NCBI GenBank assembly: GCA_013334655.1
Contig: JAAXXD010000008.1
Coordinates: 1-49,798, forward strand
Direction of reading: 5' to 3'
Length of the DNA stretch: 49,798 bases
Source of the DNA: Chlorobaculum sp.
GTDB lineage: Bacteria > Bacteroidota > Chlorobiia > Chlorobiales > Chlorobiaceae
Below the pieces are notes generated by a model, which saw only the letters and a program-made list of their open reading frames with translations, did not search any database and had not been told where the DNA came from. Of this stretch, positions 6,594-24,917 are shown piece after piece. The position numbers and the translations under genes were made by a program. Position 1 is the stretch's first letter, and every line of letters starts with the position of its first letter.

Positions 6594-7926
6594 GAGTCTG
6601 TTCACCCAAGTGTGTAAACGGTCGTTTTCAAAGGTGGACTCGTCCTTCGAATTTAATGGAAAACTGATTGATCACGGCACCCCAATTCTGAAGCGGCATT
6701 GTCCACTTTTTAGCGATGTTTTGCATGGCAAGGTAGATCAGCTTCATGATCGATTCATCGTTTGGGAACGCCCCCTTGGTTTTCAGCACTTTGCGCAGTG
6801 ACCGGTTCAGCGATTCGATGGCGTTGGTCGTGTACATGACCTTACGAATCTCTGCCGAATAGGCGAAAAACGGGATGATGTGCTCCCAGTGCGCGTGCCA
6901 GAGCTTGCTCACCGAGGGATATTTCGCGTCCCATTTGTCGGCAAAGCGGTGCAACTCCACTTCGGCTGCTTCAACGGTTGGCGATCCGTAAATCATTTTC
7001 AGATCGGCACATAACTCCTTGCGGTCTTTCCAGGAAACGAACTTCGTCGAATTGCGAATCATGTGGACGACGCAGAGCTGAACCTCCGTTTCCGGGAACA
7101 CCGCGGCAATGGCATCGGGGAAGCCGACCAGTCCATCGACGGCGGCAATCAGGATGTCCTGAACGCCCCGGTTTTTCAGTTCGGTCATGACGCTAAGCCA
7201 GAACTTTGCGCCCTCGTTCTGCGAAATCCAGAGGCCCAGCAGCTCTTTCTGGCCCTCCATCGTGATGGCTAAAGCCAGGTAAACGGCCTTGTTACAGACC
7301 CGGCCGTCCTGACGACCCTTGACGACAATGCAGTCGAAGTAGACGATGGCATACAGCGGATCGAGCGGGCGGCTCTGCCAGGCGCGCACGTCGTCGAGCA
7401 CCGCGTCGGTCACGCTGCTGATGAGCGCTTCGGAGACTTCGACCTCGTAGAGTTCCAGCAGCATCGCCTGCATGTCGCGCACACTCATGCCGCGAGCGTA
7501 CATGGCGAGTATTTTTTCGTCGAAACCCTTGAATCGCGTCTGGCGCTTGCGAATCAGTTGCGGCTCGAAGCTGCCGTTGCGGTCGCGAGGCGGTCTGATG
7601 TCGAACTGATCCTGATCGACGATGATGGTCTTTTTGCCGTGACCATTGCGGCTGTTGCCGCTGTTCGGCACGATCGGCAGATGCTTCGGATAGCCGAGGT
7701 GTTCGTCCAGCTCGCCTTCGAGCACCGTTTCGATCAAGCGTTTTTTGAGCTGGTCATACAGACCGCCCTTGTCAAAAAGGGCTCGCGGCCCACCGCTTTG
7801 TTGCAGCAGTTGCTTGACCAGCTCGCCCTGGATGTCTTGAATTTTCTCTTTCTTTTTGGTCATCGTTTTACTCCTTTCTTCATGATAGGAAACTCTGACC
7901 GTTTACACAGTTGTTCTTACAGACTC
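6594..7926 (-). mobile_element. IS256-family insertion sequence
   Basis: Mutator-type transposase bracketed by imperfect terminal inverted repeats: left gagtctgttcacccaagtgtgtaaacggtc (6594-6623), right gaccgtttacacagttgttcttacagactc (7897-7926). Confidence 0.85.
6628..7863 (-). CDS. IS256 (Mutator) family transposase
   Basis: 411 aa; DECPxx-type features (IVYFDCIVVKGRQDGRV, AAVDGLVGFPDAIAAVFPETEVQLCVVHMIRNS, TNAIESLNRSLRKVLKTKGAFP). Confidence 0.95.
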   Translation of the reverse strand: MTKKKEKIQDIQGELVKQLLQQSGGPRALFDKGGLYDQLKKRLIETVLEGELDEHLGYPKHLPIVPNSGNSRNGHGKKTIIVDQDQFDIRPPRDRNGSFEPQLIRKRQTRFKGFDEKILAMYARGMSVRDMQAMLLELYEVEVSEALISSVTDAVLDDVRAWQSRPLDPLYAIVYFDCIVVKGRQDGRVCNKAVYLALAITMEGQKELLGLWISQNEGAKFWLSVMTELKNRGVQDILIAAVDGLVGFPDAIAAVFPETEVQLCVVHMIRNSTKFVSWKDRKELCADLKMIYGSPTVEAAEVELHRFADKWDAKYPSVSKLWHAHWEHIIPFFAYSAEIRKVMYTTNAIESLNRSLRKVLKTKGAFPNDESIMKLIYLAMQNIAKKWTMPLQNWGAVINQFSIKFEGRVHL

Positions 7927-15721: not shown

Positions 15722-17047
15722 TTATTTATCGGTGAAAACGGCATTGTTGATCGTTGCCCAGCTTCGGGTCGCCTTTTTGCCAGACGGGGTGACGGTGGTC
15801 GATGAAATGATCGCATCGGTCAGGTTCACGCCAGTCAGCGTCGCGCTGGTCAGGTCGGCTCCTTTCAGGGAGGCTTTTTCCAGATTCGCATCGAACAGCG
15901 ACGCATTGGTCAGATTGGCTCCCTCCAGATTGGCCCCGTAAAGCATTGCGCCAAAAAGCACTGCGCCCTTGAGATTGGCATCGGAGAGGTTGGCGTTTTT
16001 CATGTAGGCCCTGTCGAGATTTGCGCCTTCCAGATTTGCGCCGTTCAGATTCGCCTCCTTCATATCGGCTTTTTGAAAGTTGACTCCAGCAAGATTTGCG
16101 CCCGCCAGATTGGCCTTGTCGAGGTTGGCTCGCTCGAAATCGGATTTCGACAGTGAGGCTTTTTGCAGATCGACGCCGGCGAGTTTAGCGTTACCGAGTT
16201 TTTCCTCGCTCATCTCGATTTTTGCATCGGGATTTTTCTGCCGCATCGCGTTCCACTCCTCGACCTCTCTCACATCGGGCACGGGCTGCGCAGGAACTGG
16301 CTGAGCGGAGCTTACGCCAGCAGGCAGGTTTTCGGGAATGATGACCGGCGCGACCACGATCGGCCGCACGAATTCCGGCTGCGCGGCGGGTGCTTCCTTC
16401 ACAAAACGGGCATCGTGCCGCATCGCCCACCCTTTCGAGGCCGGTTCGCCTGAAGGCAGCACGGTGTTGCCAGACACGATCGCATCCTTGAGCACCGAAT
16501 TCTCAAAAAAACTGGCTTTGTTGAGCTGCACGCCCTTGAGGTTTGCCTCTGTAAAATCGGCTTCGAAGAGCACCGCATCCTTGAGGCTCGCCCGTTCAAG
16601 ATCAGCCCCGCTCAATTTGGCCCATCTCATATTCACGCCCGCAAGATTGGCCTCCTTCAGCGAGGCCTCCTTCATGAACGCTCCGTTCATGTTGGCTCCA
16701 GCCAGCCAGGCATGAGCAGCGTTGGCAGATTTCATGTTTGTTTTTTTCAGATACGCCATGCCAAGAATCGCCCCTTCGAGGTTCGCCTCGTCGAGCGTCG
16801 CGCCGCTGAGGTCGGCTTTGGAGAGATTGGCCTTCGCCAGATTCGCCCCTTTGAGGTTCGCGCCAGCGAGGTTCGCCTTGGACAGATCGACGGCAAGCTC
16901 CGGGTGACTGCTGCGCATGGCGTTCCACTCGGCAACGCTTTTCTGAAGCAGCTTCAGCTGGTCGCGGTCATAGGCATGGGCGGTGTTGGTGGAGGAGGCG
17001 ATGACGGCAATGGCGATTGCCGAAACGATATGGCGACGGTGTATCAT
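15722..17047 (-). CDS. Exported pentapeptide-repeat protein with duplicated module
   Basis: Signal peptide followed by A(N/D)LxX repeats; two halves each start with EWNAMR and end with PSG..A..W. Confidence 0.9.
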   Translation of the reverse strand: MIHRRHIVSAIAIAVIASSTNTAHAYDRDQLKLLQKSVAEWNAMRSSHPELAVDLSKANLAGANLKGANLAKANLSKADLSGATLDEANLEGAILGMAYLKKTNMKSANAAHAWLAGANMNGAFMKEASLKEANLAGVNMRWAKLSGADLERASLKDAVLFEADFTEANLKGVQLNKASFFENSVLKDAIVSGNTVLPSGEPASKGWAMRHDARFVKEAPAAQPEFVRPIVVAPVIIPENLPAGVSSAQPVPAQPVPDVREVEEWNAMRQKNPDAKIEMSEEKLGNAKLAGVDLQKASLSKSDFERANLDKANLAGANLAGVNFQKADMKEANLNGANLEGANLDRAYMKNANLSDANLKGAVLFGAMLYGANLEGANLTNASLFDANLEKASLKGADLTSATLTGVNLTDAIISSTTVTPSGKKATRSWATINNAVFTDK

Positions 17048-17275
17048 TGCAGGGCGTTGAAGTGTCTTGAAAAAAGTTGAATTGACCGGCAGGCTGCTCG
17101 CATCGGCCTGACGCTGGTCGGCATTGCTTCAAGGTAATGAAAAAGCGAGAGAGTCCAGCGAACCCTCCTCTGGATGAAGGGGCCATTGAGGTAAAAACAT
17201 GCCGGAAACAGAATGTTTGCGGAAATGGTTCTTTCCGTGGACAGCAGTATGAAACGATAACGGAGCAACGGAATT

Positions 17276-17977
17276 ATGGCTGAACAATCAGGATACGCAA
17301 AGAAAGTGCTCGTCGCCGGAGCGACGGGCAAGACAGGCAGTTGGGTCGTCAAGCGGCTGCTGCATTACGGGGTGCCGGTCAGGGTTTTTGTTCGCTCGGA
17401 ACAGAAGGCGAGAAGCCTGTTTGGTGACGCCGTCGAGGTCGCGCTGGGAAACATCCAGGACGCCGATGCCATCAGCCGGGCGGTCAGTGGCTGCGATGGG
17501 GTCATATCGGCGCTTGGCTCATCCGCGGTGAGCGGCGAGGCGTCACCGCATGAGGTTGACCGCGATGGCGCGATCAGGCTGATCGACGAGGCCGCCAAAG
17601 CTGGCGTGAGGCATGTCGCGATGGTCAGTTCCATCGGGGTGACCAAATGGTTTCATCCGCTCAACCTCTTCGCTGGCGTGCTGAACATGAAGTTTGCCGC
17701 CGAGGAGCATCTCCGGCAGCAATTTTCAGCTGCGGGCCGCTCGTACACCATTATCAGGCCCGGCGGCCTGAAGGACGAAGAGCCGTTGCAGCACCGGCTT
17801 CGCGTGGAGCAGGGCGACCACTTGTGGAACGGCTGGACCAACCGCTCTGACGTGGCTGAACTGGCCGTGCTCTCGCTCTGGGTTGAAAACGCCGCCAACA
17901 AGACCTTCGAGGTGATCAACGAAGAGCTGGAGCCTCAGCAATCACTCGCCGGGTACTACGACAAGCTCTCCGGGTAA
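17276..17977 (+). CDS. Atypical short-chain dehydrogenase / NAD(P)-binding protein
   Basis: KVLVAGATGKTGSWVVKRLL Rossmann motif, VAMVSSIGV, TIIRPGGL. Confidence 0.85.
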   Translation: MAEQSGYAKKVLVAGATGKTGSWVVKRLLHYGVPVRVFVRSEQKARSLFGDAVEVALGNIQDADAISRAVSGCDGVISALGSSAVSGEASPHEVDRDGAIRLIDEAAKAGVRHVAMVSSIGVTKWFHPLNLFAGVLNMKFAAEEHLRQQFSAAGRSYTIIRPGGLKDEEPLQHRLRVEQGDHLWNGWTNRSDVAELAVLSLWVENAANKTFEVINEELEPQQSLAGYYDKLSG

Positions 17978-17992
17978 ACTCAACGCTTGCGG

Positions 17993-18186
17993 CATTCCCA
18001 GCTCCATCAGCTTGCCGAAATCCGTCACGGCATCGTACTTCACCCTGTCGGCCTCGATCTTCTGGTTGAGGCCGTATAAAAAGCGGCGTGCGCATTCGAT
18101 TTTTTCTTTTCGAGCGCACAGAACTGCATGGTTGACATCGATCCTTTGACTTCCGCGACAAAGTAGATGTCTTGATTTCAACAAAT
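17993..18186 (-). pseudogene. Frameshifted C-terminal remnant of a type III restriction enzyme (Res) subunit
   Basis: Minus-strand frames read DIYFVAEVKGSMSTMQ (one frame) then KEKIECARRFLYGLNQKIEADRVKYDAVTDFGKLMEL (adjacent frame), resembling the YFVAE.KGS...KI.CA..F......KYDVV.S...LMEL tail of Res proteins. Confidence 0.6.
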
Positions 18187-18249
18187 GAGGAATATCAAGG
18201 CGAAATATAAAAATAAATCATTTTAAGATTGCCTTTGTGAATCAAATAC

Positions 18250-18801
18250 TCACCATGACAAATGCGTTAGATATGGATTAAGACTAATAAAATTAGAACA
18301 AGCATCTTTTAATTCTGGAGCAACATTGTCCCAAAAAACAACATCTACCGTAAAACCACCTCCGACAAGATCCTTAACAACAGGAACATAATCTTTATCA
18401 CCCGCAACTAAAGTTATAACATCTATACCTTTTCTGACTTTTCCTGTATAGGCATCTTTAGTAATTTGATGTGCAATTGCGACATCGACCTTTTTCTCCT
18501 TACCGGCATAATTTCGTTTAAATGTTTTAACATCAAAACCTTTTTGCTCTACCATTTTCCAGAAACTATCCTTTGGCGGGGGTGATCCCCAAAGATTTGC
18601 ACATCCAATTTCTGCCATTTCGCCACAAACAAACTCATGAAGCTTGCCATAGTCAAGTTGCCATTCCCGATCTGTAACTTTGTTATTCATTGCATCAATA
18701 TAAGTATCAGCCCCCGGTATTTTTTTTGCAACAGCCGATGCGCGACAACCCTCAGCATAAACGTTTGAGTTATCGACATAAGTAAAATTAAGAATCTTCA
18801 T
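18250..18801 (-). CDS. NYN/LabA-like PIN-fold nuclease
   Basis: Acidic motifs YVDNSNVY, KKVDVAIAHQI, LVAGDKDYVPVVKDLVGGGFTVDVVFW. Confidence 0.8.
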   Translation of the reverse strand: MKILNFTYVDNSNVYAEGCRASAVAKKIPGADTYIDAMNNKVTDREWQLDYGKLHEFVCGEMAEIGCANLWGSPPPKDSFWKMVEQKGFDVKTFKRNYAGKEKKVDVAIAHQITKDAYTGKVRKGIDVITLVAGDKDYVPVVKDLVGGGFTVDVVFWDNVAPELKDACSNFISLNPYLTHLSW

Positions 18802-18908
18802 CGTTACACCATAAATAATTTTAATTCATGATTATAATTTCTCTGCGATAATCTACGGAGTATTATAAAGACATTTCTTCTTTTTTGCTAACGGAACCGA
18901 AGAAATGT

Positions 18909-19091
18909 TTACCCTTTGAGATTAAAATATTCATCCTTTTCTAGCAAGCTACTTATAGGCGGTTGAATATCTCTCTCTTCGTAATCCTTAATAGGTAAAG
19001 GTATTTCATGTGCGCCAGCAGAAATCTGAATATCAGTAATTTCATTTTCAGTATTTCTAATAACGTATAAACCTTTGTAATTACTACTCAT
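18909..19091 (-). CDS. Small hypothetical protein upstream of NYN gene
   Basis: 60 aa ORF, AT-rich, good RBS (ggaggttct), same orientation as NYN gene. Confidence 0.5.
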   Translation of the reverse strand: MSSNYKGLYVIRNTENEITDIQISAGAHEIPLPIKDYEERDIQPPISSLLEKDEYFNLKG

Positions 19092-19258
19092 CAGAACCTC
19101 CTTTAATAGATTTGAGTTCAGAAAAAAATACTGCTACAGATACTACTCAGGATACCGCTACGGAAAAGATACGGAATATTTATAAAAAAAATGCTACGCA
19201 TTCAGATTATTTTAGAGAGAGCAGAGCACCTCCTTATAATTTTCACTTTTACCGACAC

Positions 19259-19276
19259 TATACCCGTTCTGGTGTA
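19259..19276. promoter_or_regulatory. Operator-like palindrome upstream of hipB remnant (O0)
   Basis: TATACC-cgttct-GGTGTA, one mismatch from TATACC-N6-GGTATA. Confidence 0.5.
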
Positions 19277-19295
19277 AATTCATTCTACAAGGCTT

Positions 19296-19394
19296 TAGGG
19301 TTGACGCAGCCGGAACTGGTGGAGAAGGCCGGGACGGGGTTGCGCTTTGTTCGTGATCTCGAACAGGGGAAAAAGACGTTTCACCATTTACATT
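19296..19394 (+). pseudogene. Truncated duplicate of hipB
   Basis: LGLTQPELVEKAGTGLRFVRDLEQGKKTFHHLH* matches LGITQPELAEKAGTGLRFIRDLEQGKKTLRLDK of the intact hipB downstream; lacks N-terminus and C-terminal helix. Confidence 0.7.
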
Positions 19395-19399
19395 GATCG

Positions 19400-19417
19400 T
19401 ATACCATAACGGGTATA
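19400..19417. promoter_or_regulatory. hip operator-like palindrome O1
   Basis: TATACC-ataacg-GGTATA, perfect 6-bp arms. Confidence 0.65.
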
Positions 19418-19440
19418 ATTCCGACACTGAGCAGTAAAAT

Positions 19441-19458
19441 TGCACCACATCGGGTATA
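19441..19458. promoter_or_regulatory. hip operator-like palindrome O2 (degenerate left arm)
   Basis: TGCACC-acatcg-GGTATA; right arm runs into TATAAT. Confidence 0.5.
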
Positions 19459-19481
19459 ATCTCGTCAAAATCTCTTGCATC

Positions 19482-19499
19482 TATACCCGAAATGGTATA
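19482..19499. promoter_or_regulatory. hip operator-like palindrome O3
   Basis: TATACC-cgaaat-GGTATA, perfect arms, just upstream of hipB. Confidence 0.65.
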
Positions 19500-19547
19500 G
19501 ATTTATCATAATTCACGTCGCTATATTCGATCAGCTTATCGAATCTT

Positions 19548-19754
19548 ATGAACGCTTTATCCGAATTTGTCCGCAACAGGCGCAAATCTCTGGGCATAAC
19601 CCAGCCGGAGCTGGCGGAAAAGGCCGGGACGGGGCTGCGGTTTATCCGAGATCTCGAACAGGGGAAAAAGACGTTGCGGCTGGATAAGGTGAATCAGGTG
19701 CTTGCCTTGTTCGGCTACGAGCTTGGCCCCGTCAGCCAGAAACGGGAGGAGTAA
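19548..19754 (+). CDS. hipB: HipB-like HTH antitoxin
   Basis: 68 aa XRE HTH: SEFVRNRRKSLGITQPELAEKAGTGLRFIRDLEQGKKTLRLDKVNQVLALFGYELG. Confidence 0.88.
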   Translation: MNALSEFVRNRRKSLGITQPELAEKAGTGLRFIRDLEQGKKTLRLDKVNQVLALFGYELGPVSQKREE

Positions 19755-19757
19755 GCG

Positions 19758-20081
19758 ATGCGAAAAGCCGAGGTGAAATATCTTGACAAAACCGCAGGCT
19801 GGCTCGTTCAGGATGAAGAGGGCTATCATTTCCTGTACGACCAGGCATACCTCGAATCGCAGGATTCAAAACCGGTAAGCCTCACCTTGCCATTAAAGGC
19901 CGACTCATATTCGAGCAAAACCATGTTCCCGTTTTTTGACGGTCTGATTCCTGAAGGCTGGCTGCTTGAAGTTGCCGAACGGAACTGGAAAATCAATCCG
20001 CGAGATCGCATGGGATTGTTGATGAACTGCTGCACGGATTGCGTCGGGGCGGTCAGCGTGCATCCAGTTATCACGGAGTGA
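19758..20081 (+). CDS. hipS: HipS-like protein (free-standing HipA N-subdomain 1)
   Basis: 107 aa; KTAGWLVQDEEGYHFLYDQAYLE..PVSLTLPL...MFPFFDGLIPEGWLLEVAERNWKI..RDRMGLLMNCCTDCVGAVSV, matching HipA N-terminal domain as a separate ORF. Confidence 0.8.
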   Translation: MRKAEVKYLDKTAGWLVQDEEGYHFLYDQAYLESQDSKPVSLTLPLKADSYSSKTMFPFFDGLIPEGWLLEVAERNWKINPRDRMGLLMNCCTDCVGAVSVHPVITE

Positions 20082-20084
20082 TTT

Positions 20085-21038
20085 ATGGAACAGCGCTGCC
20101 TCTATTGCTATGAACCGTTGGCATCCGGCGAGACGGATTTCCATCCGAAATGCAGCCGGAAAATGTTCGGAACTGCGCTTCCGCCACTGTTGCCCTATGA
20201 TGAAAACCAGCTCGATGAACTGGCATTGGAGGTCGTTCGCAGCCACACCGCAATTACCGGCGTGCAGCCAAAACTGTCGCTGCATCTTGACTCTCCCGGA
20301 AAAAACCGTGAACCTCAACGATTCACCATCGTCGGCTTGTGGGGCGGATATATCCTCAAGCCCCCTTCACAACGATTTCCGCAGTTGCCTGAAATCGAGG
20401 ATTTGACGATGCACATGGCTGAAGCGTTACGGATCGCGACGGTTCCGCATTGTCTGATTCGAATGAAGTCAGGAAAACTTGCATATCTGACGCGCCGTAT
20501 TGACCGCACGAAGAAGGGAAAACTGCACATGGAGGATATGTGTCAGATAACCGGTCGGCTGACGGAAAACAAATATGATGGTTCGTATGAACAGATCGCC
20601 AAAGCAATCCTTCGCTTCTCGGTAAATCCGCGCCTCGATGTGATCAACTTTTTCGGGATGGTGTTGTTTTGCTTCTTGACTGGCAATGCCGACATGCACC
20701 TGAAAAATTTTTCATTGATCGATATTCCCGAAAAAGAGGGAGTGAACCTGGCTCCGGCCTATGATCTCCTCTCTACCGCTCTCATGATGCCTTCCGATGA
20801 CGAAGACCTTGCTTTGACGCTGAACGGGAAGAAAAAACGGATAACGTTCAAGGATATGAAAACTGCGCTGCAAACTTTATCGGTTGACGAGGTGGTGCAG
20901 GATCGAATGTTCAGCAAGTTCAGCAAGGCTCGTCCCGTTCTGGAGCATCTGATCGACAAGAGTTTTCTTGACACAAAACTCCAGACAAGGTACAAGGAGC
21001 TTGTCATGAAGAAGTACCGACAGATCGGTCTGGTTTGA
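20085..21038 (+). CDS. hipT: HipT/HipA-like serine/threonine kinase toxin
   Basis: 317 aa; N-terminal CLYCYEPL..DFHPKC zinc-ribbon-like, Gly-rich loop SHTAITGVQPKLSL, GGYILKP, catalytic GNADMHLKNFSLI and LAPAYDLLST. Confidence 0.87.
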   Translation: MEQRCLYCYEPLASGETDFHPKCSRKMFGTALPPLLPYDENQLDELALEVVRSHTAITGVQPKLSLHLDSPGKNREPQRFTIVGLWGGYILKPPSQRFPQLPEIEDLTMHMAEALRIATVPHCLIRMKSGKLAYLTRRIDRTKKGKLHMEDMCQITGRLTENKYDGSYEQIAKAILRFSVNPRLDVINFFGMVLFCFLTGNADMHLKNFSLIDIPEKEGVNLAPAYDLLSTALMMPSDDEDLALTLNGKKKRITFKDMKTALQTLSVDEVVQDRMFSKFSKARPVLEHLIDKSFLDTKLQTRYKELVMKKYRQIGLV

Positions 21039-21075
21039 TGAACTGATTTTTTTGCAATCAAAAAGGACCTCCTTT

Positions 21076-21348
21076 TCAGGCAGTCGTATCTGTCGCGTCT
21101 CGCAGCTTGTCGGTGCGCGGCGACGAGGGCGTTGGCGTTGGCGGCGACGGTTTACTCAAGATCGGCGCCGGTGTGGACGATGCTGGTGAACATGGCGACG
21201 TAACCCCCTTCGAAACGGTAGTAATCTGCCGTTTCTTCTCCGATAAATCAGCAGCATGAGCAACGCCAGCCATGCCACCCGAAATCGCGAACACCAGCAA
21301 CAGCGGCAAGGCAAAGTGAACAAAGTTTCGGAAAATGAGGGTAGTCAT
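21076..21348 (-). CDS. Small Pro-rich exported protein
   Basis: 90 aa; N-terminal TM/signal (FALPLLLVFAISGGMAGVAHAAD), Pro-rich tail. Confidence 0.4.
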   Translation of the reverse strand: MTTLIFRNFVHFALPLLLVFAISGGMAGVAHAADLSEKKRQITTVSKGVTSPCSPASSTPAPILSKPSPPTPTPSSPRTDKLRDATDTTA

Positions 21349-21512
21349 AAAATTCGCGCCGTTGAAATGTTGGGGATTACCGGAACGAAAAACCGACTGT
21401 TCGGCAACAGGCGGTGTGCTGTAAGGTCAAATGCGATGCAAAAAGGTTATGCTGTTGGGCTGGTCTGTCTGTCAGCAAAAGAAGTAAAATAGCGCAAAAA
21501 GATTGTATGAAA

Positions 21513-21541
21513 AAAGCCTGCCGAGAGCTTCGGCAGGCTTT
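21513..21541 (-). terminator. Intrinsic terminator of csmD-like gene
   Basis: aaagcctgccga-gagct-tcggcaggcttt stem-loop; minus-strand T tract. Confidence 0.8.
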
Positions 21542-21577
21542 GCGTTCAGTGGATCGGAATCCGTTGCAGCCTTCAGT

Positions 21578-21937
21578 TCAGGCTTTCTTGCACGGGAAGA
21601 TTCCGCAGACGATGTTCGAGGCGGTGTTGATTCCCGACTGCGCAACCGAAACCGCCGAGTTGACCACGGCTCCGGCCAGATTGACCACCGCGCCGCCGAG
21701 CTGACCCACGGATCCAGTCACGGTTCCGGCAGCGTCAGTCAATGTTTTCACCGACGAACCGAGAATGTCCGTCACGCTCTGGGCAGCATTGGTGATGGTC
21801 GGTACTGCCGACTGGATGGCGTTTGAAACCAGATTGAGCTGGTTAACGCCAAGCTCAGTGACGCTTTTGACCGCGAAGTCAAACGACTTCATCGTGTCGA
21901 TTTTTGCTTCTTCTGCTTTTTTTACCTCTTCTGCCAT
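21578..21937 (-). CDS. csmD: Chlorosome envelope protein, CsmC/CsmD family
   Basis: 119 aa MAEEVKKAEEAKIDTMKSFDFAVKSVTELGVNQLNLVSNAIQ...; located next to csmE. Family membership more secure than the C vs D choice. Confidence 0.6.
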   Translation of the reverse strand: MAEEVKKAEEAKIDTMKSFDFAVKSVTELGVNQLNLVSNAIQSAVPTITNAAQSVTDILGSSVKTLTDAAGTVTGSVGQLGGAVVNLAGAVVNSAVSVAQSGINTASNIVCGIFPCKKA

Positions 21938-22107
21938 GATGGGCCTCCTTTGTTTTGGTAATGAGTTTATCCGTCGTGAAATTCTGTCTGCCCGGCGCTG
22001 TCGGCAAATCAGGAGTTCCGTTCAATGACGCCGTTCTGGGTACTTCTGTAAAAAATGTACTGATTCGCGGCAAACACTTCAAACAGAGTCCGATCAGAAA
22101 ACAAAAA

Positions 22108-22125
22108 AAGGGCTTTTCAGCCCTT
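22108..22125 (-). terminator. Intrinsic terminator of csmE
   Basis: aagggct-tttc-agccctt with A-tract upstream on + strand (T-tract for minus-strand transcript). Confidence 0.8.
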
Positions 22126-22148
22126 CTTTTGCTTACTACTTTTGACGA

Positions 22149-22397
22149 TCAGTCCTGAAAACGGCTCTTCACCTCTTTGGTTGGTGTTGCGTAGCCGGAA
22201 AATTTCGGAGACGATCCCTTCAGTCCGGCGCTTCCGCCATACAGATGCGGGTAGGCATTTGCGCCGAGCCGCTTGGTGGTTTTGCCGATATTCTCAAGCG
22301 CGTCGCCGACTACCCACCAGTGGCCATCGATAAAAACCTCGACAAATCTGCCATAGGCTTCAGCTCCCTGTACGAATGCTCCTGCTGGGTTGTTCAT
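22149..22397 (-). CDS. csmE: Chlorosome envelope protein CsmE (CsmA paralogue)
   Basis: 82 aa GRFVEVFIDGHWWVVGDALENIGKTTKRLGANAYPHLYGGSAGLKGSSPKFSGYATPTKEVKSRF, CsmA/CsmE signature. Confidence 0.9.
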   Translation of the reverse strand: MNNPAGAFVQGAEAYGRFVEVFIDGHWWVVGDALENIGKTTKRLGANAYPHLYGGSAGLKGSSPKFSGYATPTKEVKSRFQD

Positions 22398-22494
22398 GGT
22401 GAAAATCCTTGATTATTGAATGGTCATAATTTAAGCCAAGTTAAAAAAAATAATGTACCGGCGCAACAGATATTCCCCGGCGATTTTACCTTGC

Positions 22495-22857
22495 TCAGGC
22501 CAACATGCGAAGGCACATGAGCAGCTCCTGGCCTCCGAACGGCTTTTTGAGCGTCGCGTTCGCTCCGACGGCATCGGCAAGAAGCAGGAAATTTTCCGGT
22601 CCGGCTTTTCCGCCGCCCGAAATAGCCAGAATTTTCATCGAGGGATTGATCTTGCGCACCTCCATGATGGTTTCGATCCCCTCTTTTTCAGGCATGAGCA
22701 GATCGGTGATGATGATGGAAACGTCTTTTTCCTGCTGAAGTTTTTTCAGCCCTTCATTGCCATTTTCAGCTTCGATTACGACGAAGTTTTCCTTTTTCAG
22801 TGTCGTGGCTATGAACTTCCGGACGGACGGATCGTCGTCGATGACAAGTATTTTCAT
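22495..22857 (-). CDS. CheY-like response regulator
   Basis: ILVIDDDPSVRKFI, IIITDLLMPEKEG, TLKKPF. Confidence 0.93.
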   Translation of the reverse strand: MKILVIDDDPSVRKFIATTLKKENFVVIEAENGNEGLKKLQQEKDVSIIITDLLMPEKEGIETIMEVRKINPSMKILAISGGGKAGPENFLLLADAVGANATLKKPFGGQELLMCLRMLA

Positions 22858-24917
22858 ATGACTTCCGTGGGATTGGTTGATGAGAGTACTTCGTTGACAG
22901 CAGAGGCCAACTGAGCCAGCTTGACCGGTTTTTTCAGCAAACGATTGATTCCGTAGTGTCTCAGCGGCGTATCGTGATCGATGATTTTGCCATATCCTGT
23001 CATCAGAATGACCGGAATCGATGGCGAAATCTTGTGAAGTTCGGTGGTTAGCTGAAGGCCGGTCATATCGGGCATGGTCAGGTCGGTGATGATCAGGTCG
23101 AACTGATCCGGCTGCTTCCTGAATAATTTCAGCGCTTCCAGCGGAGAGTTTTCGGCGCGGATGTTGTATCCGAGCTTGGTCATCATGATGGTGACCATGT
23201 GAATCGCCGCAGGTTCATCGTCGATAAAGAGGACGTTGGCCGCGTATTTTGCTGCCTGCGGCTTCTCCTCCGCTTTGGCGACGGGCTTGTTCTCGACAAT
23301 CGGCAAATAGACATGGAAGGTCGATCCTTTGCCTTGGTTGCTTTCAACGTTGAGCTGTCCGTTGGCTGCGGCGACGATTCCATGAACGACAGAGAGGCCC
23401 AGCCCGGCACCTTTCTCGATCGATTTGGTCGTGAAGAACGGTTCGAAAATTCGCTCTATGGTCGTTTCATCCATGCCGGTGCCGCTGTCGGAAACAGACA
23501 ATTCGATATAGTCGCCTTCGGGCAGTTTCGGCGCGGTTGACGGCATCGCGCTCTGTTCGTTGACTTCCCTGAGGCCGATCCTGAGCACTCCGCCGGTCTC
23601 CTCCATCGCGTGGAAGGCGTTGGTGCAGAGATTGACGACGACCTGGTGCATCTGGGTCGGGTCGGCAAAAACCTTGCGGCACGAGCTGTCGATCTCTTCT
23701 TCGATGGAGATGGTCGATGGCAGCGATGGACGCAAAAGCTGGATGGCTTCAGCAATGACCTCCTGGATGCTCACCTGCTCGCCCTTGCCCTCCTCGGCTT
23801 TACTAAAGGTCAAAATCTGCGCGACAAGCTTTTGTGCTCGTTCGGCGGCAAGCATGATCTCAGAGAAATATTCATGCATCGGATCATCTTCACCGATGCT
23901 GGAGAGCCCCATTTCGGAGTAACCGAGAATGGGCGTGAGGATGTTGTTGAAATCGTGAGCGATACCGCCGGCGAGGGTGCCGATGGTTTCGAGCCGTTGA
24001 GCTTTGCGCAATTGCGATTCGAGTCGTCGGTTCTCTTCCTGGCTGGCGACCCGCTCGGTCACTTCGCACAGGAGTCCTTCGAGGCCTTCATAATGGCCGT
24101 CATCCTGGAATGACGAGCGCATGTGGTCTTCGATCCAGTGCAGAGCGCCGTCAGGGGTGACGATCCGGTAAATCAGCGTCAGGGATTTCTTCCCTTCCTT
24201 GAGTTTGCTGTACGCCTCGGCCACCATGTTCCGGTCGTCCTGATGTATCATTGAGAAGGTGTCGATCAGGGGCGTGCCGTGATGATCGGCGGCGAGCGCC
24301 TTCAGAAATTCGGGAGGTTTGGAGCGTATGGTGGCTTTACCGGTGGCGTCGATGTGGTATATCGCGCCTGGAATATTGTCGATCAGCGCTTGCAGCTCCT
24401 CATGCGCTTTTTGAGCCTGCGACTCGCATTCGCCGTCGAGTGCCTGCCGCGATCCGGCGAGGCACAGCGGTTTGCCGTTCTGGTCGCGCCGGGTGATTTT
24501 GCCGCGATCGAGCACCCGGATCCACTCGCCGCTCTTGTGGAGTACCCGCAACGCTAACTCCAATATCTCCGCGCCGCCGTTCAGTAACCCGTCTAACGAT
24601 TGCGTGATTGCGCCGAGATCGTCCGGGTGGCAAAGCTCGCGCCACTTCTCAATCGTCAGCGCATCGAACTCTCCGGGAGCGTGACCGGTCATGGCCGCCC
24701 ATCGCTTGTTGATTCTAAACGTATCGCGCTCCAAATCCCACTCCCACCATCCCGCCTGGGCTGTTTCAAGGGCCGCTTCCAGAGCCTCGGCGCTTTGTTC
24801 GGCAGTCGAGACCCTGCTTTCAAGCATGGCGATTTTCCTTTCGAGCGCCGCGATAAGTCCGTCGGCCACCCCGTGGTCAGCGCCTTGCGGCGAATCCGGT
24901 TTGTAACTCTCCATCAA
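22854..24917 (-). CDS. PAS-PAS hybrid sensor histidine kinase with C-terminal receiver
   Basis: 687 aa; H-box IAHDFNNILTPILGYSEMG, HATPase G boxes, receiver VLFIDDEPAAIHMV..LIITDLTMPDMTG..LLKKP. Confidence 0.93.
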   Translation of the reverse strand: MMESYKPDSPQGADHGVADGLIAALERKIAMLESRVSTAEQSAEALEAALETAQAGWWEWDLERDTFRINKRWAAMTGHAPGEFDALTIEKWRELCHPDDLGAITQSLDGLLNGGAEILELALRVLHKSGEWIRVLDRGKITRRDQNGKPLCLAGSRQALDGECESQAQKAHEELQALIDNIPGAIYHIDATGKATIRSKPPEFLKALAADHHGTPLIDTFSMIHQDDRNMVAEAYSKLKEGKKSLTLIYRIVTPDGALHWIEDHMRSSFQDDGHYEGLEGLLCEVTERVASQEENRRLESQLRKAQRLETIGTLAGGIAHDFNNILTPILGYSEMGLSSIGEDDPMHEYFSEIMLAAERAQKLVAQILTFSKAEEGKGEQVSIQEVIAEAIQLLRPSLPSTISIEEEIDSSCRKVFADPTQMHQVVVNLCTNAFHAMEETGGVLRIGLREVNEQSAMPSTAPKLPEGDYIELSVSDSGTGMDETTIERIFEPFFTTKSIEKGAGLGLSVVHGIVAAANGQLNVESNQGKGSTFHVYLPIVENKPVAKAEEKPQAAKYAANVLFIDDEPAAIHMVTIMMTKLGYNIRAENSPLEALKLFRKQPDQFDLIITDLTMPDMTGLQLTTELHKISPSIPVILMTGYGKIIDHDTPLRHYGINRLLKKPVKLAQLASAVNEVLSSTNPTEVI

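Follow-up and report, generated by a model that had tools for sequence, protein, structure and literature searches.

In Hip kinases, phosphorylation takes place at Ser150 of Escherichia coli HipA, which precedes the glycine of the Gly-rich loop by three residues, at Ser57 and Ser59 of E. coli HipT, and at Ser54 of Legionella pneumophila HipT. The role of loop autophosphorylation differs between the systems in a conflicting way: it inactivates HipA, E. coli HipT is toxic only with its site in place, and Legionella HipT can do without it. The S57A substitution in E. coli HipT, yielding an AIS loop, abolishes toxicity in vivo (PMC10627512), but both S54A and S54D variants of Legionella HipT, a kinase for which ejection of the P-loop has been described, remain toxic (PMC10653801). 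The target of E. coli HipT is TrpS; with Legionella HipT, neither TrpS nor GltX rescued growth (PMC10653801). As Legionella-like tripartite systems have already been reported to be widespread in the Fibrobacterota-Chlorobiota-Bacteroidota group (PMC10653801), the presence of HipBST in the genome considered here is not new in itself.

The window, that is, the whole stretch of DNA analysed, comprises 49,798 nucleotides from Chlorobaculum sp. (contig JAAXXD010000008.1 of assembly GCA_013334655.1). On its forward strand we observed three intact ORFs with both gaps equal to 3 nt, in agreement with the original prediction. The first one, hipB (19548-19754, +, 68 aa), encodes an HTH DNA-binding protein and presumed repressor (HTH_3, E 4.6e-8; TIGR03070 couple_hipB, 87.8 bits, above the cut-off). 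It is followed by hipS (19758-20081, +, 107 aa), a free-standing HipA N-subdomain-1 and presumed antitoxin (PF13657 Couple_hipA, E 1e-25; TIGR03071, E 2e-30), and by hipT (20085-21038, +, 317 aa), a HipA-like Ser/Thr kinase core without N-subdomain-1 and presumed toxin (PF07804 HipA_C, E 3e-45). The family matches of all three genes exceed the curated cut-offs. Together with homologous operons, these matches confirm the predicted hipB-hipS-hipT operon with a detached N-subdomain and a kinase core lacking it.

The locus has the features of a HipBST module, namely, the gene order hipB-hipS-hipT, HipS similar to HipA N-subdomain-1, and HipT as a core kinase with the Gly-rich loop, the catalytic motif and the Mg-binding motif. 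With HipBST of E. coli O127:H6 (PDB 7AB3/7AB4/7AB5) it shares the order of genes, the free HipS, HipT without N-subdomain-1, the catalytic motifs, the PEGW motif of HipS with its Trp wedge, and the N-terminal mini-domain of HipT. HipBA of E. coli K-12 and Shewanella oneidensis has the same kinase fold and catalytic motifs, but the N-subdomain there is fused to the kinase, HipB is the antitoxin, and Ser150 is the single site; since HipS and the kinase are separate in the window, the operon does not belong to HipBA.

The nearest relatives of the operon are from Chlorobiaceae. In comparison with them, substitutions in hipB, hipS and hipT are strongly synonymous (dN/dS 0.04-0.19), and hence purifying selection maintains all three genes. 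HipT has a single match in its own assembly, which comprises 146 contigs totalling 2.43 Mb and is 84.5% complete. In a sample of 198 genomes of the phylum, 34 have a match to HipT with E not above 1e-60. The same gene order and split form were observed in dozens of intact loci from Chlorobiota and Bacteroidota and in one locus from Kiritimatiellota. This distribution indicates that the hipS/hipT split is ancient. Along with the original prediction, a strain-specific frameshift of one hipA gene had been considered as the way in which the split could have arisen; however, hipS and hipT are separate ORFs both in the window and in every complete hipBST relative examined, and we rejected this explanation. 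A 434-aa frame in one relative (L084), initially resembling a HipS-HipT fusion, was also discarded, as the HipS match lies in a different ORF, and the frame is merely an extended open one. In three other loci (L011, L013, L068) relatives of hipT contain in-frame stop codons or have their frame split, which suggests that the module has been lost repeatedly.

Among solved structures, HipT is most similar to HipT of Legionella (E 1.1e-46) and then to HipT of E. coli (E 4.7e-17), both ahead of any HipA. The AlphaFold2 model (pLDDT 87, pTM 0.88) yields the same order of best Foldseek matches, with Legionella HipT (7wcf) at TM 0.89 and E. coli HipT (7ab3) at TM 0.76-0.79, the latter being about 24% identical to the window HipT in the structural alignment. 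The kinase motifs listed in the original prediction, GNADMHLKNFSLI and PAYDLLST, are both present. All 41 loci aligned agree at residues G, N, D, M, H, L and K of the catalytic motif GNADMHLKN (20682-20708, +); in the Mg-binding motif PAYDL (20754-20768, +), covered by the alignment with E. coli HipT, D227 is retained in 38 of 41. The kinase motifs together with RxDR are thus conserved across these 41 loci. Free HipT would be a growth-arresting Ser/Thr kinase.

HipS is also closest to its Legionella counterpart (7vkb_B, E 6.5e-15; E. coli HipS, 7ab3_B, 4.8e-9). In the structural comparison, proposed earlier for both proteins, the HipS model (pLDDT 84) had HipS chains as its first matches, although the overall superposition was poor (TM about 0.55, rmsd 8). 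At the sequence level, Glu66-Gly67-Trp68 (19953-19961, +) align without gaps to Glu63-Gly-Trp65 in the PEGW motif of E. coli HipS (7ab3_B). The surrounding motif GLIPEGWLL is nearly invariant, Glu66 being without exception and Trp68 being kept in 30 of 31. In E. coli, Glu63 and Trp65 point into the active site of HipT and wedge the loop outward (PMC10627512), while in Legionella HipS the place of Trp is taken by Ile or Met (PMC10653801). The operon thus joins a HipS whose plug resembles that of E. coli and a HipT with its best score against Legionella HipT.

The Gly-rich loop of HipT, A56-I57-T58-G59-V60-Q61-P62-K63 (20250-20273, +), was assigned from alignments to 7ab3/7ab4 and to Legionella HipT and from column counts, its pLDDT being below 50. 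The register H54-T55-A56-I57-T58-G59 is gap-free relative to both 7AB3 (the S57A variant, M-A-I-S-G) and Legionella HipT (M-S-V-Q-G). Ala56 hence occupies the position of HipA Ser150, E. coli HipT Ser57 and Legionella HipT Ser54, and Thr58 that of E. coli Ser59, so that A56-I-T58 stands against S57-I-S59 in E. coli HipT and S-V-Q in Legionella HipT. Thr55 is situated one residue before the primary phosphosite, in a variable column where T, I, K, V, F, A, H, W and L all occur.

This register bears on the earlier description of the loop as TxIT-type and on the reading that follows from it, in which both Thr55 and Thr58 would be autophosphorylated for regulation. Loops of the TxT/TxP form do constitute a recognised group (PMC10627512) and occur in relatives, and Thr58 is located where E. 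coli Ser59 is autophosphorylated. Nevertheless, Thr55 is out of register, residue 55 varies, and the primary position holds Ala56, so that regulation at both threonines is highly improbable and the TxIT label has to be abandoned. What survives of the predicted regulatory phosphorylation on threonine is the Thr58 position, which could serve as a regulatory phosphosite; Thr55 could not.

Across 41 loci, position 56 is occupied by Ala (19), Thr (19), Ser (2) or Cys (1), and position 58 by Thr (34), Pro (5) or Ser (2). Of 45 relatives, 22 have Ala56. When the tree was computed with the loop columns removed, position 56 switched between Ala and Ser/Thr at least eight times, four of these changes being forced by well-supported branches. 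The loop of L044 is AVT, and in two further relatives (L085, L086) it is A-V-P, with a phosphorylatable residue at neither site and the kinase frame otherwise intact. We therefore dropped the rule that Ser or Thr is always retained at one of the two loop positions, which held in 41 of 41 loci; because of these two relatives, autophosphorylation cannot be assumed. L040 and L041 have an altered loop context (SVSGVLPKLV in L040, PVCELL), and HipS of L040 also lacks Trp (PEGALL); in these two loci, HipS and HipT seem to decay or diverge in parallel.

Ala56 does not by itself place the operon outside HipBST, as known family members also lack Ser/Thr at this position: according to PMC10627512, which lists PsiPsiT members, Ser/Thr at the Ser57/Ser150 position is common in the family, although not universal. 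Ala56 could mean, however, that HipT is a non-toxic or attenuated kinase, comparable to the dead E. coli S57A, and that the operon is an autoregulated regulatory or addiction remnant. The in vivo non-toxicity of S57A and the frequency of Ala56 in relatives agree with such a natural weakening or inactivation of the toxin. On the other hand, the catalytic residues are conserved at low dN/dS, position 56 has alternated repeatedly between Ala and Thr in an otherwise conserved kinase, and Legionella HipT tolerates S54A without losing toxicity. We consider attenuation improbable and prefer to regard HipT as an active kinase independent of primary-site autophosphorylation, a reading suggested against the conflicting experimental record of E. 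coli S57A and Legionella S54A.

The N-terminal mini-domain of HipT contains a CxxC...HxxC motif (C5, C8, H20, C23; 20097-20153, +), a probable zinc ribbon, modelled with pLDDT about 90. In a set of 41 relatives it never varies, and four others have it as well. The original prediction had noted an N-terminal Cys/His motif absent from E. coli HipT, and this proved correct: in the alignment the E. coli mini-domain keeps just the first Cys of the four Cys/His ligands, and the motif is invariant in the clade. No Pfam family was assigned to the mini-domain of the window, while that of a relative gave weak LIM/TRASH matches, and a word search of an open-access literature collection yielded no description of a Cys/His ribbon on HipT. 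As suggested by the spacing of the ligands, the mini-domain would most likely bind one structural zinc, which would stabilise the mini-domain and possibly also its contact with HipB or with the substrate.

Upstream of hipB we observed an array of putative operators, TATACC-N6-GGTATA palindromes. O1 (TATACCCGAAATGGTATA, 19482-19499) is an exact site with perfect palindromic half-sites, conserved in relatives. O2 (19441-19458, two mismatches) lies 41 bp upstream of O1, and O3 (TATACCATAACGGGTATA, 19400-19417, exact) lies 41 bp upstream of O2, so that O1-O3 are exactly 41 bp apart. O4 (19259-19276, one mismatch) precedes a hipB remnant. Apart from O1 and O3, the 2.43-Mb assembly contains no exact site. 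When sites with at most two mismatches were counted in the 400 bp before hipB, we obtained 114 sites in 36 related loci, compared to 0.9 expected from shuffles, and 70 of 77 successive spacings were 40-42 bp, about four helical turns. One locus from Saprospiraceae (L056) contains about 19 operator copies in 40-bp steps, from -25 to -865 relative to hipB, instead of the usual two to four. Scans for sigma-70 promoters and terminators performed no better than on shuffled sequences.

Exact sites among 61 relatives mostly occur at hipBST. The palindromes can be linked to HipB itself, since an orphan hipB (L071, G053:C11:467800-471800; gene at 756-1058), 71% identical to that of the window, retains two exact sites with a spacing of 82 bp, or 2 x 41, and neither hipS nor hipT was found in the 4-kb stretch around it. 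This orphan is possibly a stand-alone regulator or a survivor of a lost module. Three other isolated exact sites were observed in G013, G034 and G043:C7:242990. Legionella HipB binds three operators of 18 nt each, which consist of 6-nt half-sites and follow one another at regular 53-bp gaps (PMC10653801). The arrangement upstream of hipB in the window is similar, with multiple evenly spaced 18-nt sites and 6-nt half-sites, the difference being in the gaps, 53 bp (71 bp start to start) in Legionella and 23 bp (41 bp) here. The HipB of the window would be expected to bind the TATACC-N6-GGTATA sites. The array provides a clear candidate HipB site, none having been described for these bacteria in the literature found.

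By the best PDB hit, the Legionella HipBST (7VKB/7WCF/8EZR) is the closest solved relative (E 1e-46; TM 0.89), and the operon could be filed as Legionella-type. We rejected this assignment, as a scan of the phylum revealed a separate SxQ clade. Six loci of the same phylum (L077-L082) share the split hipB-hipS-hipT operon but have SxQ loops, HipS with PEG without Trp, and no ribbon, the HipT of these Legionella-like relatives starting with CPITY or similar, with the other ligands missing; no TATACC sites with at most one mismatch were found in the stretches fetched. HipT of L077 matches Legionella HipT at E 2e-113. Two related loci (L083, L084) have SxG loops, and all eight (L077-L084) form one group with 95/100 support. 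The window differs from the Legionella type in the A-I-T loop instead of S-I/V-Q, the HipT N-terminus other than CPITY, and the presence of Trp in HipS. As the SxQ-type loci lack all three, the ribbon and the Trp plug go together, accompanied in most loci by the operator array. The ribbon group requires two changes on the best tree, and a branch separates it from the rest in only 70% of bootstrap trees, the branches being long. Of the T[IV][TP] and PsiPsiT groups of HipT (PMC10627512), the former has its counterpart in a part of the ribbon clade with T-I/V-T/P loops, and the A-I-T loop of the window resembles PsiPsiT; having Ala56 rather than Thr at the Ser57 position, the window itself is not of the TxIT, or T[IV][TP], type. 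For these groups, the available part of that paper mentions no Ala at the first site and no Cys/His ribbon.

The surroundings of the operon retain traces of its history. Between O4 and O3 there is a remnant of a second hipB (19288-19380, +), comprising the HTH part with both ends lost. It is 83% identical to hipB over 93 nt and 89% identical to hipB of L064, and, being closer to the latter, it comes from a related second module and not from a recent copy of this one. A repeat element of ~140 bp is located directly 3' of hipT (about 21060-21196), with a second copy (82%) elsewhere in the genome (G000:C115:5735-5887); in two relatives (L002, L003) it flanks hipBST on both sides as direct repeats. 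These observations are consistent with movement of the module between copies of the element. Rfam yielded no match at 17000-23000. About 12 kb upstream of the operon, an ORF on the reverse strand (6628-7863) resembles, by eye, a Mutator/IS256-type transposase. The patchy distribution of the module within one genus fits horizontally spread defence or toxin-antitoxin modules in general, and one could suggest a phage-defence or persistence device and not a plain addiction or stress module. This is rather unlikely, as inspection by eye revealed no defence neighbours, and there is no known activation trigger.

Taken together, the locus is very probably a HipBST toxin-antitoxin operon that resides on the chromosome and belongs to a ribbon-bearing sub-type. 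It would work as follows. Unbound HipT, a Ser/Thr kinase of the HipA family, would arrest growth. HipS would bind HipT and hold the Gly-rich loop outward in an ATP-incompetent state, with Glu66 and Trp68 plugging the active site, as the conserved residues and the E. coli structure suggest. HipB would bind both HipT and the helically phased array, whose sites are conserved, and the complex would thereby shut its own promoter. As Ala56 occupies the primary site, on/off control of the kinase cannot use it, and would rest on HipS and, at most, on Thr58.

The module is best regarded as a variant within the known HipBST kind, characterised by the ribbon-bearing HipT, the Ala/Thr-variable primary loop site, the Trp-type HipS and the 41-bp phased array. 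It is possible, although doubtful, that these features mark a distinct and widespread HipBST sub-type of Chlorobiota and Bacteroidota, controlled by HipS and a zinc ribbon of HipT, possibly sensing metal or redox state, instead of primary-site autophosphorylation, with the phased operator array setting transcription. Since Ala and Thr alternate several times at the primary site, and two members carry A-V-P, the ribbon clade constitutes a natural experiment, whose wild-type proteins make it possible to examine what autophosphorylation does.
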